A stretch of DNA of 64,000 bases from the NCBI GenBank assembly GCA_947494695.1, contig CANLWB010000015.1, positions 1 to 64,000 on the forward strand, written 5' to 3'. The notes under the pieces are model-generated. The model ran no database searches. It was not told the origin of the DNA and saw only the letters and a program-made list of their open reading frames with translations. The translations under genes were made by a program, and so were the position numbers. Positions 16,606 through 22,282 of this stretch are shown piece after piece (the first letter of the stretch is position 1; the number at the start of each line of letters is the position of its first letter). This stretch comes from an uncultured Flavobacteriaceae bacterium. GTDB lineage: Bacteria; Bacteroidota; Bacteroidia; Flavobacteriales; Flavobacteriaceae.

Positions 16606-19600
16606 CTATTTATTTTTTAATACTTTAACATTCATTTCCTCCACTTTTTTATCAGATAAAATAGAAGGGGCACCGAATAACAAATCATCACTGGTACCAG
16701 TTTTCGGGAAAGCCATAACTTCTCTAATGGACACCTTTTTTTCCAAAATCATCATTAGCCTGTCCACACCCCAGGCGATACCACCATGAGGAGGTGCACC
16801 ATAGTGAAAGGACTTATACATGGTACCAACGCTTTTTAGCATGTCCTCTTTGTTATACCCCATATTTTTATAGGTAGCTTCTAAAATTTCAGGTTTATGC
16901 GCACGCACAGAACCTCCTCCAATTTCATAGCCGTTTAAAATAAGGTCGTATTGTTGAGCGATAATGTCTCCTATTTCATCTTCCTTACCAATCATGTGTT
17001 TCTCAATATCATAAACTGCAGGCATAGAGAATGGATTGTGAGTAAAGGTCCAACGTCCTTCATCTGTTTTTTCAAACATTGGAAAATCTACAACCCATGC
17101 TGGTCTTAGTTCTTTCGGATTGATTAAACGAAGCATACGCCCTAATTCCTGACGAACAGCGTCCAAGGCCTTATTAGCTGTAGCATAATCGGCAGCAGAG
17201 AAAAATACAATGTCGCCAACTTTCGCATCTGTGGTTTTTATAATACCACTGGCAATATCTTCTCCAAGGAACTTAATTATTGGAGATTGTAGGTCATTTT
17301 CATTTACAATAATATAGGCTAAACCACCAAGTCCGTGCTGTTGGGCAATGGCAGTTAGTCTCTCTATTTGTCCTTTAGATAAACGTTTTTTTCCTTGTTC
17401 TTCGGCCGAGACTTTAATGCATTTTACAATACCGCCTTCTTCAATAGGTTTACTAAAAACCTGAAACGTGGTATCTCTTACTATAGCCGTAATATCTTGA
17501 AGTTGTAGTCCGAAACGCAAATCTGGTCGATCACAACCGTATTTATCCATCGCTTCTTTATAGGTAAGTACCTCAAATGGATGTAAAATCCATTTTTTAC
17601 CATATATTTTCTTTACGATATCGTTGAACATGTTGGTGTTCAAATCGATAATTTGTTGCATACTAGCATAGGCCATTTCAATATCCAACTGTGTGAATTC
17701 CGGTTGACGGTCTCCACGAGAATCTTCGTCTCTAAAGCAACGTGCCAGTTGGAAATATTTTTCATAACCACTTACCATGAGCATTTGCTTAAATTGTTGC
17801 GGTGCCTGCGGTAAGGTGTAAAATGCCCCAGATTGTTTACGACTAGGTACAATAAATTCTCTTGCACCCTCGTCTGTCCCAGCACTTAGAATAGGCGTTT
17901 CTATTTCCAAAAAGTTCTGTTCATCCAGTATATCGCGCATCAATTTAATGACTTTATGGCGGTTCACTATAACACGACGAACATCATCATTTCTATGATC
18001 TAAAAATTTATATTGAAAGCGTACATTTTCATTACTCTTGACGGCACGTTTTATTTCGAAAGGTAATGTTTTTGAGAGATTTAGAATCTCTAAAGAAGCG
18101 GTTTCCATTTCGATCTTTCCTGTTCTTAAGGAAGCATTGTAATCGTCTTCATGACGTTGAACAATGGTACCACTAACCATAATAACCGATTCTGGTTTTA
18201 ACTTTACCAATTCGTCTAAGTTTGGAAAGGATTCTCTACTTAAACGTACCTGAAATACTTCATGACTGGAATCTCTTAAATCGATAAAAATAAGTTCGCC
18301 ATGATCGCGTACGCTAGAGACCCATCCTGCGAAAGTGACATCGTTCGAGATGTTTTCATCTGAAATATCTGTAATAAGATGCGTGCGGTATTCTTCTTTA
18401 ATAACCATGGGGATTTCTGGCAAAACTTCTTCTTGAACTTTCGAAGCCCCCCCTTGATCGCTTGTTGTAACGTGTTCTTTTTTTGTAGTTGAGGTATCCT
18501 GGCTATTGGATCCTGAGGCTTGTAATTCGCTAATAATTTTTTCACGAATTACTTTACCTGAAGCACCTTTTCCAATGATGCTTATAACTTTACCAACAAG
18601 GATCCCTGCTTTTCCTTGATTTCCTGCTTTAATATCGTTAGCAACTGCTTCATTCTGGGCAATTACTTTAGAAATAGCATCTTGAATTTGAGATTCGGAA
18701 ATGGTATTATCTTCGAAATACTTATTGTAATCGAAGTCTCTATCTTTTAAATACGATGTGATGGCATTCTGAACCAATACTGAGGTAATTTTTTCTTCCT
18801 TAAAGAGCTGAAAAATCTCAATGAGATGTTCAATTCTATGAATATCACCATACTCGTCTGCCCCAATATTATTTACCAAAGTTTTAGCAACAAATGATGG
18901 GTCTTTAAGTTCATTATTTATGGCGATAAACGTTCTAGAGCGCACTGGGTCTGATGTGAAAAATTTCGCATCTTGAGGGAGTACACCACCTTTAATAAGA
19001 ATAGATTCTACTGCGAAGGGAAGTGTGCTGGTGTCTACTTGTACCGTGTCTACCACGTCCTTTATAGACACAAAAGGAAGATCTGGTTCGGAAATAAAAC
19101 GGTAGTCCGCTTCAAACTCCTTTTTACGCATCGTCTTGGTTTGCTTTAACTCGGCATCCCATAAAACAGTAGTTTGCTCTGGTCTAAACTCTTTATGTTC
19201 GATGTAATAGTTAAGTTGTTTTTCAATTTCTTCCTTTAAAGCTTCAACCATAAACTTAAACGAGTTTAGGTTCTTTATTTCGGTACGAGGGTTTAAATTA
19301 TAACTGTGTTTCTTTCGAAGTGATACAGAAACATCCGATTTAAATTCTCCTTTTTCGAGATTGGCTTCAGATATTCCTAAATTTTGAACAATACGCTGAA
19401 TGTATTGCGCATATATTGAAGCATCTTCAATATGACGAATGCACGGTTCGGTTACAATTTCAATAAGTGGCACGCCGGCTTTATTAAAGTCGACTAGTGA
19501 TACTGTTTTTTCGTGCATCAACTTAGCGGCATCTTCCTCAATATGAACCTGGGTTAGGTTAACGGTAAATTGCGAACCGTCATTTCTAAAACAAGAGACT

Positions 19601-19950
19601 TGCCCGTCTGGAATAATTGGGTTATGAAACTGAGTGATTTGTATGTTTTTGGGGTTGTCTGGGTATTCGTAATGTTTTCTATCCCAGGATATCACGTCAT
19701 TTTCGAAAGATGATTTTACCGCTTTTCCAAAATGAATAGCCTTGATAATGGCTTCTTTGTTAATGGCTGGCAGAACGCCCATTTGTCCGGTACAAACCGA
19801 ACATATATGTTCATTGGGTGTTTCTATGTCGCTGCTTGGACAAGAACAAAACAATTTGGTTTTGGTATTTAACCGCACGTGTGTTTCCAGTCCGATTACC
19901 AATTCTATCTCATGGGCTTTTAATGCCTCGTCTAATTGTTCCAATTTCAT
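16606..19950 (-). CDS. gatB/aspS: Fusion of GatB (Asp/Glu-tRNA amidotransferase subunit B) and aspartyl-tRNA synthetase
   Basis: One 1114-residue frame carries two complete enzymes. Residues 1 to about 490 are GatB: the kinase-like core begins GLETHVRLNTKTKLFCSC with zinc ligands Cys35, Cys37, Cys50, Cys53, and ends in the YqeY-like tRNA-binding tail (AGNQGKAGILVGKV, GKGASGKV). A Ser/Thr/Gln/Glu-rich linker of about 25 residues follows. Residues about 513-1114 are bacterial-type AspRS: OB anticodon domain (VRDHGELIFIDLRD), class II motif 2 (ARCFRDEDSRGDRQPEFTQ), the GAD insertion, and motif 3 (GGIAWGVDRLMMIL). AspRS charges tRNA; GatCAB converts mischarged Asp-tRNA(Asn) to Asn-tRNA(Asn). It is third in the gatC-gatA-gatB::aspS operon, 87 bp after gatA. 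Sequencing error is unlikely because the linker is continuous and both halves are intact. Confidence 0.95.
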   Translation of the reverse strand: MKLEQLDEALKAHEIELVIGLETHVRLNTKTKLFCSCPSSDIETPNEHICSVCTGQMGVLPAINKEAIIKAIHFGKAVKSSFENDVISWDRKHYEYPDNPKNIQITQFHNPIIPDGQVSCFRNDGSQFTVNLTQVHIEEDAAKLMHEKTVSLVDFNKAGVPLIEIVTEPCIRHIEDASIYAQYIQRIVQNLGISEANLEKGEFKSDVSVSLRKKHSYNLNPRTEIKNLNSFKFMVEALKEEIEKQLNYYIEHKEFRPEQTTVLWDAELKQTKTMRKKEFEADYRFISEPDLPFVSIKDVVDTVQVDTSTLPFAVESILIKGGVLPQDAKFFTSDPVRSRTFIAINNELKDPSFVAKTLVNNIGADEYGDIHRIEHLIEIFQLFKEEKITSVLVQNAITSYLKDRDFDYNKYFEDNTISESQIQDAISKVIAQNEAVANDIKAGNQGKAGILVGKVISIIGKGASGKVIREKIISELQASGSNSQDTSTTKKEHVTTSDQGGASKVQEEVLPEIPMVIKEEYRTHLITDISDENISNDVTFAGWVSSVRDHGELIFIDLRDSSHEVFQVRLSRESFPNLDELVKLKPESVIMVSGTIVQRHEDDYNASLRTGKIEMETASLEILNLSKTLPFEIKRAVKSNENVRFQYKFLDHRNDDVRRVIVNRHKVIKLMRDILDEQNFLEIETPILSAGTDEGAREFIVPSRKQSGAFYTLPQAPQQFKQMLMVSGYEKYFQLARCFRDEDSRGDRQPEFTQLDIEMAYASMQQIIDLNTNMFNDIVKKIYGKKWILHPFEVLTYKEAMDKYGCDRPDLRFGLQLQDITAIVRDTTFQVFSKPIEEGGIVKCIKVSAEEQGKKRLSKGQIERLTAIAQQHGLGGLAYIIVNENDLQSPIIKFLGEDIASGIIKTTDAKVGDIVFFSAADYATANKALDAVRQELGRMLRLINPKELRPAWVVDFPMFEKTDEGRWTFTHNPFSMPAVYDIEKHMIGKEDEIGDIIAQQYDLILNGYEIGGGSVRAHKPEILEATYKNMGYNKEDMLKSVGTMYKSFHYGAPPHGGIAWGVDRLMMILEKKVSIREVMAFPKTGTSDDLLFGAPSILSDKKVEEMNVKVLKNK

Positions 19951-20037
19951 CTGCTTATTTTATTTTTTTAGAGGTCAGATGCAATATCCAAATGGAGATA
20001 CTTCGTTCGATTGAAAATGTCGTTAATGTATATGTCA

Positions 20038-21438
20038 TTATATTGTATCTTTTAAGAAGTTAGCAAACTTCAAAACAAGTTCATCATTGTTTTTAGCTGC
20101 TGTTATCTGTAACCCGGTTTGAGTACCTTGAGGTACAGCTAAAGTTGGTAATTGCCCCAAGCTGAAACCTACGGTGTAGGCATCAGAGAGATACATGGCC
20201 AGCGGGTCTTTTAAACTATCTCCAATTTTTGGGGGTATGTTTGGTGTGACTGGAGAAATTATAATATCCAGATTTTCAAAGTCTTTTTCGAAATTTTCAG
20301 AAATAGCATCTCTTAAAGCCAGACCTTTTAAATAGATTTCATCAGAAAACCCTTGGGAAAGCACCTGATTACCGCCTACGATACGTCTTTTTGTTTCTTC
20401 AGAAAATTTTTCAGACCGGGTAATGGCGTAAGATTCTTTTAAATTTTTGTCCTCAATACGATCCCCATAATTAGTACCGTCTAAGCGCGATAAATTAGAG
20501 GCGGTTTCGGCCATGGCTAAGGTGTAATACGTAGATACCAGAATATCTGAATCAAAGAAATCCAGTTCTTTTACTGTAATACCTTTAGCTTTTATTTTTT
20601 CGATGGTCTCTAAAAATTCGTCCTTGATCTGAGGATCTATAGCTTCACTTTCAATGAAATTTTTAAAGTAGCCAACCGTTTTTGCATTGGAAGTACTTTG
20701 AATACGTTCCTTTTCTATGTGTTGTGATTGATACGTGGTTTGGTCTTTAGTGTCCTGCCCACTCATGGTATTTAATATAATTCGAATATCTTCAACAGTC
20801 TTTGCAATAGGGCCCACACAATCTGTTGAAGAGGCATAGGCCATGATGCCATATCGTGAAACACGTCCGTAAGTCGGTTTTAATCCATAAACGCGGTTAT
20901 AACCTGCCGGTTGACGTACAGATCCTCCGGTATCACCACCTATAGAAAACACGGTGTAGTCTTTAGCCACGTTTACGGCCGATCCTCCGCTGGAACCACC
21001 GGCAACGAGCTCTGGGTTTATGGCGTTTTTAACAGCTCCAAAAACAGTATTTTCGCTAGAAGACCCGTGCCCAAAGCTATCGCAGTTCTCTTTTACGATA
21101 GGTATGGCTCCCGCATCTAATAGCTTTTGGATAGCAGTTGCTGTATAAGCCGATTTATATGGTTTTAGTAAATTCGAGCTTGAAGTAGCATATGTGCCTT
21201 GTAGCATGATGACATCCTTAATACCAAACGGAATACCTTCCAGGAGTCCAATGGTTTCTCCATTTTCAATTTTGGCATCTACTTTAGCAGCCTTTTCCAA
21301 GGCGAATTCAGATAATAAAGAATTTACGGTATGGTGAGTGTTTTTTTGTAATGCATCTAACCTTTCCTGTATTAAGGTAACACAGGAGATGCTCTTGTCA
21401 ACTAATTGTTGATGGATTTGCTGTATTTGAGATTCCAT
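20038..21438 (-). CDS. gatA: Asp-tRNA(Asn)/Glu-tRNA(Gln) amidotransferase subunit A
   Basis: GatA is the glutaminase subunit of GatCAB, releasing ammonia that is channelled to GatB. The amidase-signature triad is present: Lys74 in GIKDVI, Ser149 in AGGSSGGS and the nucleophile Ser173 in GGDTGGSVRQPAGY, with the usual 75- and 24-residue spacings. Length 466 is typical. It starts 3 bp after the gatC stop, so the two are one transcript, and gatB::aspS follows. Confidence 0.95.
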   Translation of the reverse strand: MESQIQQIHQQLVDKSISCVTLIQERLDALQKNTHHTVNSLLSEFALEKAAKVDAKIENGETIGLLEGIPFGIKDVIMLQGTYATSSSNLLKPYKSAYTATAIQKLLDAGAIPIVKENCDSFGHGSSSENTVFGAVKNAINPELVAGGSSGGSAVNVAKDYTVFSIGGDTGGSVRQPAGYNRVYGLKPTYGRVSRYGIMAYASSTDCVGPIAKTVEDIRIILNTMSGQDTKDQTTYQSQHIEKERIQSTSNAKTVGYFKNFIESEAIDPQIKDEFLETIEKIKAKGITVKELDFFDSDILVSTYYTLAMAETASNLSRLDGTNYGDRIEDKNLKESYAITRSEKFSEETKRRIVGGNQVLSQGFSDEIYLKGLALRDAISENFEKDFENLDIIISPVTPNIPPKIGDSLKDPLAMYLSDAYTVGFSLGQLPTLAVPQGTQTGLQITAAKNNDELVLKFANFLKDTI

Positions 21439-21441
21439 AGT

Positions 21442-21708
21442 TTATGCATCTATAACTTTAGAAACAACCAAATAGCCGTTTTTCTCTTTAGGAAAGTTGT
21501 CTTTAATGATCTGTTTCTCTAAAGCAGAACTTTCTACGATTTCATCGGCTCTCAAATTGTCTAAAGACACGCTATCATGATTATTATTAAAGGGAGTGTT
21601 ATTTGTAGCTTGTGCATGTTTTATCACCTCGAATAATTTGTTTACAGCCTCAGAGGGTTCTGCGCCTTTAATACTAGACAATATGTCTACTGTCATAATT
21701 TTACTCAT
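21442..21708 (-). CDS. gatC: Amidotransferase subunit C, short form
   Basis: An 88-residue protein in the GatC position at the head of the operon. The C-terminal half matches the GatC pattern LRxDExxxS...NFP...GYLVVSKVI (LRADEIVESSALEKQIIKDN, then GYLVVSKVIDA), the belt that wraps around GatA. The N-terminal half is less conserved, as often in Flavobacteria, and a second possible start (M5) exists. Its ATG lies 23 nt beyond the terminator hairpin of the leader, so its expression should depend on antitermination. Confidence 0.85.
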   Translation of the reverse strand: MSKIMTVDILSSIKGAEPSEAVNKLFEVIKHAQATNNTPFNNNHDSVSLDNLRADEIVESSALEKQIIKDNFPKEKNGYLVVSKVIDA

Positions 21709-21728
21709 GTCTTAATTTTTGAATTAAT

Positions 21729-21757
21729 AAAAAAGCCTTCCGGATTCGGAAGGCTTT
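21729..21757 (-). terminator. Intrinsic terminator of the gatC leader (attenuator terminator)
   Basis: On the minus transcript AAAGCCTTCCG pairs over 11 bp with CGGAAGGCTTT (plus coordinates 21747-21757 and 21732-21742) across a 4-nt loop and is followed by six T residues. It lies between the leader peptide and gatC, within the operon's own 5' leader. Confidence 0.9.
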
Positions 21758-21834
21758 ACATATTTTTAAACAATAACCTTCCTATCCTAGAACTTAGGAT
21801 TATTGAAATTATTATTGTTATTATTTTTTGTCAT
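21732..21834 (-). promoter_or_regulatory. Ribosome-mediated transcription attenuator responding to Asn-tRNA
   Basis: The leader has the parts of a classical amino-acid attenuator. (1) A 15-codon peptide rich in Asn. (2) A hairpin at its end: ATCCTA (21795-21800) with TAGGAT (21784-21789), the latter overlapping the stop codon. (3) GGAAGG at 21777-21782, which can instead pair with CCTTCC in the 5' arm of the terminator (21748-21753), giving an antiterminator. (4) The terminator itself. Stalling at Asn codons would cover element 1, freeing the region after it to form the antiterminator; fast translation to the stop would cover it and let the terminator form. This matches the product of the operon, Asn-tRNA. 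Confidence 0.85.
21787..21834 (-). CDS. Asn-rich leader peptide of the gatCAB-aspS operon
   Basis: ATG at 21834 and TAG at 21787-21789 give the 15-residue peptide MTKNNNNNNFNNPKF. Eight of the fifteen codons are Asn (seven AAT, one AAC), six of them in a row. It begins about 18 nt after a TATATTTG box and ends on the first hairpin of the attenuator. Too short for normal gene finders. Confidence 0.85.
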   Translation of the reverse strand: MTKNNNNNNFNNPKF

Positions 21835-21851
21835 AATGGTTGTTCTGATGT

Positions 21852-21859
21852 CAAATATA
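21852..21859 (-). promoter_or_regulatory. Predicted -7 box of the gatCAB-aspS operon (TATATTTG)
   Basis: TATATTTG on the minus strand fits TAnnTTTG and would start transcription about 12 nt before the leader-peptide ATG. A matching TTG at 19-21 nt upstream is not evident. Confidence 0.55.
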
Positions 21860-22282
21860 TACAGAATAAATTTAGTATACATCATTTTTTACTCATCTAA
21901 AATTTTTATTGCCAAATTAATAAAAAACGTGAAGTTAATTTATTAGTTCTATAATGATTCTTCGTTTAGGCTTAATTCTTGACAGAATATTTTGTCTTTG
22001 TAGATTGAAAAAGTGAGTGTTTACCTGTTTTATCTGTCATGATCGTGTTATCTCATATTTAAGTGTTTTAACAGGTGCTCCAAAGGTTAAAACTGAAAAG
22101 TAATTGTTTGGTCAAAATAAACGTGAAATTAACAAAAGACCTGTTTGTGATTTCGGTTGAACGATTTGTGATATAGTAGGGTAGGTTGTTGCGTGTAATT
22201 GACTGATTTGTGATTAATATTGATCTAAAATTGATTACAAAAAGTAATTAATTGCGGTCTGTAAATTTAAAACCAAATCATT
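21860..22282. other. Intergenic region with three helically phased TTTGTGAT repeats
   Basis: TTTGTGAT occurs at 22144-22151, 22165-22172 and 22207-22214, offsets of 21 and 42 bp, i.e. two and four DNA turns. They lie upstream of the decayed LRR gene and look like a relict multi-site operator. No gene is seen. Confidence 0.5.

Follow-up and report, generated by a model that had tools for sequence, protein, structure and literature searches.

A probable asparagine-sensing leader-peptide attenuator in front of a gatC-gatA-gatB::aspS operon in Flavobacteriaceae

The subject of this study is a short leader on a 64,000-nt stretch of DNA (the window: positions 1 to 64,000 of contig CANLWB010000015.1, GenBank assembly GCA_947494695.1) from an uncultured Flavobacteriaceae bacterium. 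The leader is rich in asparagine (Asn) codons, ends in an intrinsic terminator and lies, from its open reading frame (ORF) through that terminator, within 126 nt 5' of gatC, the first gene of a gatC-gatA-gatB::aspS operon. All of these features are on the minus strand. We are highly confident, though not certain, that the element is a ribosome-mediated transcription attenuator that senses Asn-tRNA(Asn) and controls an operon for tRNA-dependent Asn synthesis.

The leader peptide gene, recognized by reading the ORF (21787..21834), encodes MTKNNNNNNFNNPKF in 15 codons, eight of which are Asn, and runs from an ATG at 21834-21832 to a TAG at 21789-21787. A -7 promoter element, TATATTTG (TAnnTTTG; 21852..21859), ends 17 nt 5' of the ATG. 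In the RNAalifold consensus of 53 sequences, an Asn-codon hairpin (21769..21819) pairs the Asn codons at 21819-21814 with 21774-21769 and UUUC at 21808-21805 with GGAA at 21781-21778, and a small hairpin (CCTAA/..TAGG; 21785..21799) forms over the stop codon of the leader. The 5' arm of the antiterminator, GGAAGG(TT) (21775..21782, with GGAAGG itself at 21782-21777), begins 4 nt past the stop. Its 3' arm, (AG)CCTTCC (21748..21755), is shared with the 5' arm of the terminator (21729..21757), which consists of an 11-bp stem (21757-21747/21742-21732) and a T-run to 21729, 23 nt before the gatC ATG at 21708. A first-pass annotation made from the letters alone had placed the element at 21732-21834 and had listed a 15-residue leader with eight Asn codons, a stop hairpin, GGAAGG and an 11-bp terminator 23 nt before gatC; on reading the minus strand, its coordinates are correct and every one of these parts is seen.

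The element stands out from its surroundings. The 161 nt from 21700 to 21860 have a folding energy of -33.6 kcal/mol (z -4.4), a value equalled by none of 200 shuffles, and dinucleotide shuffling of the 300 nt 5' of gatC, repeated 20,000 times, never gave a short ORF with five consecutive and at least eight Asn codons. No other short ORF in 862 kb of the own genome (the window and 40 stretches, together about a sixth of it) has five consecutive Asn codons. Six consecutive AAY codons are by themselves not rare, since they give three whole-genome matches, two of them overlapping, against three for the reversed control pattern.

The operon downstream begins with gatC (21442..21708), which scores 22.2 bits with NCBIfam TIGR00135 (cut-off 47.1), has no Pfam match and keeps its operon position in relatives. 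It is followed by gatA, the amidase subunit (20038..21438), with 436 bits against a cut-off of 481.1 for TIGR00132, and by the gatB::aspS fusion (16606..19950; 1114 residues), in which NCBIfam and Pfam models recognize GatB_N, GatB_Yqey, OB-fold, tRNA-synt_2 and GAD. More specifically, GatB occupies residues 14-477 of the fusion and, after a linker, a complete aspartyl-tRNA synthetase (AspRS) of bacterial type, including the GAD domain, occupies residues 520-1112. From its sequence, the fusion would be a covalently linked form of the complex between AspRS and GatCAB; a literature search for a GatB-AspRS fusion returned nothing relevant among the matches listed. The GatB part occurs in 59 of 397 genomes of the family at E <= 1e-120, 58 of the 59 showing it in an open frame as long as a fusion requires, and at E <= 1e-150 in five of 296 genomes of the order, all five being Flavobacteriaceae. 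Gene order is retained in relatives whose stretch includes the genes. The gap between gatA and the fusion (19951-20037) is 87 nt in the window; in most relatives the two genes are nearly adjacent.

Two requirements of the indirect route to Asn-tRNA appear to be present in this genome, namely GatCAB, by family models, and a tRNA(Asn) with a U1-A72 pair. The tRNA gene was found with ARAGORN, which identified one in 798 kb of the own genome; a passage of PMC4206432 describes the U1-A72 pair in tRNA-Asn as needed or recognized by bacterial GatCAB. (A separate pattern scan for tRNA-Asn matched in two of 20 genomes, one of the matches not being tRNA-like, and missed the tRNA of the own genome, whose T-loop differs.) The fused AspRS carries RDHG in 92 of 92 rows, some genomes being represented twice, and the stand-alone AspRS that the own genome also possesses carries RDKG. 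The histidine of RDHG presumably marks a non-discriminating AspRS.

The own genome has a full asparaginyl-tRNA synthetase (AsnRS) as well, and AsnRS is present in 63 of 68 operon-bearing genomes (E <= 1e-80), none of which has an asnA match (E <= 1e-20). AsnB-type genes (TIGR01536, E <= 1e-70; a model that also picks up paralogues from polysaccharide clusters) are missing in 36 of 59 genomes with the fusion versus 31 of 338 without it, an association with a Fisher p of about 1e-17 that is uncorrected for kinship. Within the genus of the window's own organism, ten of 12 genomes have no AsnB-type gene above the cut-off. The one AsnB-like gene of the own genome lies among genes for a glycosyltransferase, a polysaccharide deacetylase, a formyltransferase and an MBOAT protein, and is therefore probably not the housekeeping enzyme. 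Because the own genome contains AsnRS and a separate AspRS, the operon is probably an added route, and because AsnRS is retained, asnA is missing, AsnB is often missing and tRNA-Asn has U1-A72, we read this tRNA-dependent route as one that serves Asn biosynthesis. The first-pass annotation had called the products of the operon the very enzymes that make Asn-tRNA(Asn). They would not be the only ones, given the AsnRS and the second AspRS. Four other genomes (G468, G513, G522 and G663; at least 99% complete) carry the fusion operon with no AsnRS match and no strong leader match, and in these the fusion may be the sole source of Asn-tRNA.

The leader is conserved well beyond the window. Judged by eye, all 12 genomes inspected in the own genus have it 5' of the operon. 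A wider set comprised 80 named GTDB loci (L051-L130), the best among 305 relatives. Four of these have no gatC in their stretch; among the other 76, which have readable upstream DNA, the leader is present in 48 and absent in 28. In total, 54 rows carry the leader, one genome appearing twice, and the 53 distinct leaders were used to build a covariance model. This model gives one strong match in the own genome (126.7 bits), the next reaching 43 bits; four of these lower matches, considered as second Asn leaders, were rejected as ordinary terminators near gene ends. Across the 397 genomes of the family, 37 have a strong match of at least 93.5 bits, one per genome, and a gap then follows down to 49.1 bits; some of the 37 fed the model and so match by construction. 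At E <= 0.01 a match is obtained in 168 of the 397, weak in 131 of them.

The strong matches point to a single target. In all 30 strong loci that were examined, the own one included and seven of the 37 left out, gatC is the gene directly next, and 36 of the 37 genomes with a strong leader have the fusion, the exception (G423) lying on a contig that ends in gatA. On a rough tree, each of the two large parts of the fusion clade includes genomes with the leader. Six rows of that tree (L047, L048, L049, L050, L086 and L129) are labelled leaderless only for missing or short upstream DNA, and the 15 leader changes counted on it are therefore too many.

The conservation is that of a coding sequence. 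Counting back from the stop, nine positions of the 53 leaders are Asn in 448 of 477 codons (AAT 369, AAC 79), with AAA found five times and AAG once; chief among the other residues is Arg (CGT), which seven leaders, including Polaribacter, carry at one position. Each of the six positions of the run is Asn in 45-53 of the 53 leaders, and the third positions change synonymously. The stop is TAG in 53 of 53, in keeping with the stop hairpin, which needs TAG. Upstream, TAnnTTTG is found within 75 nt 5' of the leader ATG in all 54 rows, in 48 of them at 15-19 nt, and in 158 of 2700 shuffled 75-mers. This sequence is given in a passage of PMC9723704 as the promoter consensus in flavobacteria. With the box just 5' of it, the leader ORF, more than half of whose codons specify the amino acid in question, is probably located at the extreme 5' end of the transcript.

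The consensus fold of the leader region pairs the Asn codons with UUAUUGUU, UUUC with GGAA and CCUAA with UUAGG, next to the terminator. Pairs of the leader hairpin are possible in 99.5% of cells of the 53-sequence alignment and those of the stop hairpin in 100%, mostly unchanged, with one double-sided change (C-G to U-A) in the stop hairpin; for this reason the covariation of the leader hairpins counts for little. The terminator between leader and first gene, predicted from its 11-bp stem and U-run, does covary: it has 21 double-changed cells and a score above all 500 shuffles, with the qualification that a single pair, the one adjoining the loop, accounts for 19 of the 21 and that related sequences can outscore shuffles.

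The antiterminator pair is a matter of conservation. GGAAGG is exact in 49 of 53 leaders and has an identity of 98%, the CCTTCC arm 99% and the linker before GGAAGG 55%; CCTTCC is present in 52 of 53 alignment rows, the remaining row being off by one column. An alignment-free search agrees, with GGA[AG]GG at most 14 nt from the stop and a later CCTTCC in 52 of 54 rows, and the antiterminator helix is paired in 98.3% of cells. The first-pass annotation had proposed to look for compensatory changes in this pair. There are none (0 double changes in 53 sequences), which leaves its proposal where it stood and means that the case for the pair rests on its conservation.

We then computed the folding of 53 leaders with a ribosome at each codon, for two footprints and before the 3' arm of the terminator is made. 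The mean antiterminator probability is about 0.95 as long as the A site lies anywhere from codon -13 to codon -3. At codon -2 it is 0.61 or 0.96 depending on the footprint, and at the stop it is at most 0.09. These values agree with where nearly all Asn codons lie and with the gap of 4 nt between stop and GGAAGG. In these computed folds, the antiterminator would exclude the terminator, as both use CCTTCC, and would be masked by a ribosome at the stop.

From these features a mechanism can be proposed. Transcription would start about 10 nt 5' of the leader ATG, as suggested by the position of the promoter box. With ample Asn-tRNA, the ribosome would reach the TAG and cover GGAAGG, leaving CCTTCC to fold into the terminator, and transcription would stop before gatC. 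Under a shortage of Asn-tRNA, the ribosome would wait at an Asn codon and GGAAGG would stay free to pair with the nascent CCTTCC; the terminator would then come too late and gatC-gatA-gatB::aspS would be transcribed. On this reading, tRNA(Asn) would be charged with Asp by the fused enzyme, and amidation by GatCAB would then give Asn-tRNA(Asn), the same molecule that the leader would sense. In a leader that is not translated, the Asn codons could pair with downstream sequence and sequester GGAA, perhaps favouring termination. An Asn-leader attenuator for this operon is what the first-pass annotation had suggested, and the idea gains strong support from the conservation of the leader across many genera, the synonymous change of its Asn codons, the promoter and the computed dependence on ribosome position.

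Several observations weigh against this reading. The scores of gatC and gatA are under their NCBIfam cut-offs, and the non-discriminating character of the fused AspRS is putative. The leader is lacking in the 28 of 76 operon-bearing relatives noted above, four of 53 alignment rows deviate from GGAAGG, and compensatory change is lacking in the GGAAGG/CCTTCC pair. When full-length RNA is folded at equilibrium, the terminator always wins, and antitermination must therefore be kinetic, as it is in trp attenuation. Before the 3' arm is made, RNA free of ribosomes forms the antiterminator too (0.93), so the state without translation is not clearly an off state. Lastly, leader and AsnB show no significant link among the fusion genomes, AsnB being present in 12 of 36 with the leader and 11 of 23 without it (p 0.29).

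Among other explanations, the leader might sense Asn-tRNA through ribosome position in the same way and act on the translation of gatC, by reinitiation or coupling. Leader ORFs can affect downstream translation, and the short ORF is close to gatC; what makes this reading unlikely is the 11-bp stem with its U-run and covariation, together with a spacer between terminator and gatC that in some relatives measures from about 50 nt (L071-L073) to 188 nt (L079) and is hard to reconcile with coupling. A general attenuator of translation stress, in which the Asn run would be an effect of A-richness, would draw on the computed folding, in which the antiterminator remains free wherever from codon -13 to codon -3 the ribosome halts. 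We regard it as quite improbable, because at least six Asn are kept through exchange of AAT and AAC, because only six of the 477 codons are Lys, and because the single target would itself make Asn-tRNA. It is very improbable that the RNA binds tRNA(Asn) or another ligand directly, in the manner of a T-box riboswitch, with the ORF incidental to it: the window has no match to an Rfam family at the gathering score, no T-box is among the 16 Rfam matches at E up to 10 in 21600-21960, and the Asn codons vary synonymously with the frame kept. Chance juxtaposition of a low-complexity, AT-rich ORF with an ordinary terminator of an upstream transcript can practically be dismissed, for although the genome is AT-rich, six AAY in a row are not rare and ordinary terminators elsewhere reach 43 bits with the model, none of the 20,000 shuffles gave such an ORF and dozens of genomes conserve it with a fixed promoter.

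The leaderless rows number 30, since the 28 named loci are joined by L044, which is from the same genome as L065, and by L045 (the upstream DNA of L117 is only 158 nt). In these 30 rows the covariance model detected no hidden leader, with nothing above 28.6 bits and nothing within 350 nt of gatC. Most of these rows share a different promoter-like sequence close to gatC: 27 of the 30 have TTT[TC]GTA[AG]TTT[TC][GA] no more than 100 nt 5' of the gene, against 0 of 54 leader rows. It resembles TTTYGTAATTTTG, can also be given as TTTYGTARTTTY(G/A), and is seen for example in L064, L067, L069, L075, L113, L116, L119, L120 and L125. From these sequences it looks as if leader and promoter had been exchanged as one module. 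AsnRS is lacking in none of 33 genomes with the leader and in four of 22 without it (p 0.02, with small numbers and no correction for kinship); this comparison drops four genomes less than 90% complete (G555, G460, G435 and G352), of which G555 (76% complete) carries the leader but gives no match to AsnRS.

We propose, with moderate confidence, a wider picture for many Flavobacteriaceae: Asn synthetase would have been replaced by synthesis on the tRNA through a covalently joined AspRS-GatB enzyme, this synthesis would be controlled by tRNA charging as read through an Asn leader, and the control would be carried or dropped as a module, the leader and its promoter being swapped for the leaderless promoter.

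The leader attenuators for Phe, Trp, Leu and His are similar to the element described here in having a leader peptide rich in the cognate amino acid, a terminator and control over genes for tRNA charging; the element in the window differs from them in its amino acid, in the indirect amidation route and in its occurrence in Bacteroidota, and we claim no sequence homology. With Rfam RF01859 (Phe_leader) the window scores 39.4 bits, below the gathering score of 55. Closer in lineage is Bacteroid-trp (RF01692), a tryptophan peptide leader in Bacteroidota that appears in a list in PMC2864571. For Flavobacterium psychrophilum, a section of PMC9723704 reports clues to leader peptides before amino-acid operons and structured leaders at synthetases; that section names pheA, hisG, alaS and others and includes no Asn or gat case. 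Short ORFs resembling leader peptides are described for Bacteroides thetaiotaomicron in a part of PMC7366714. Bacteroid-trp and the F. psychrophilum elements are, as the leader in the window would be, peptide-leader attenuators of the same phylum or family, but Bacteroid-trp senses Trp whereas the leader in the window would sense Asn, and RF01692 has no match in the window at the gathering score and none to the leader at E up to 10.

The indirect route beside AsnRS has parallels too. In Deinococcus, Thermus and Bdellovibrio, AsnRS coexists with a non-discriminating AspRS and GatCAB, and the indirect route is proposed or shown there as Asn biosynthesis, according to a passage of PMC4206432. The own genome shares the presence of AsnRS beside a predicted indirect route, with the difference that the second AspRS is of archaeal type in Deinococcus-Thermus, that Bdellovibrio has one AspRS, and that in the window the second AspRS is of bacterial type, fused to GatB and, in our reading, under the control of an attenuator.

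In Firmicutes, an RNA reportedly senses tRNA(Asn) directly and controls tRNA-dependent Asn formation with no leader peptide involved. Searches of open-licence PMC articles for an Asn leader gave no published case among the matches listed. The first-pass annotation had held that, to its knowledge, control of a tRNA-aminoacylation operon by its own product through an Asn leader peptide is not described in Bacteroidetes. Peptide-leader attenuators as such are known there (Bacteroid-trp; PMC9723704); only the Asn and gat case appears new. Thus the principle is known, and the amino acid, the pathway and the enzyme arrangement appear to be new. To our knowledge, an Asn attenuator would be the first in Bacteroidota to govern indirect aminoacylation. 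If the reading is right, Asn joins the amino acids sensed by leader-peptide attenuation, and the device acts on a tRNA-dependent synthesis in which the input of the sensor is the product of the enzymes. It would suggest a testable reason for the persistence of the indirect route in bacteria that have AsnRS, in a family that provides a comparative set with and without leader, AsnB and AsnRS, and would add a compact Asn-responsive switch to a phylum with few described ones.

Two minor observations concern neighbouring sequence. Marginal Bacteroid-trp matches occur in two relatives, at L099:9378-9493 (54.0 bits) and L092:11912-12028 (50.7 bits) against a cut-off of 49; the one in L099 lies just 3' of the fusion gene, and both may be chance. 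Within the window, a AAAAATAT block (21760-21767, minus strand; alignment columns 74-82) sits between the leader hairpin and the terminator. It is unpaired in all three structures considered, has 97% identity in the 53 sequences and is perhaps a pause or factor site.
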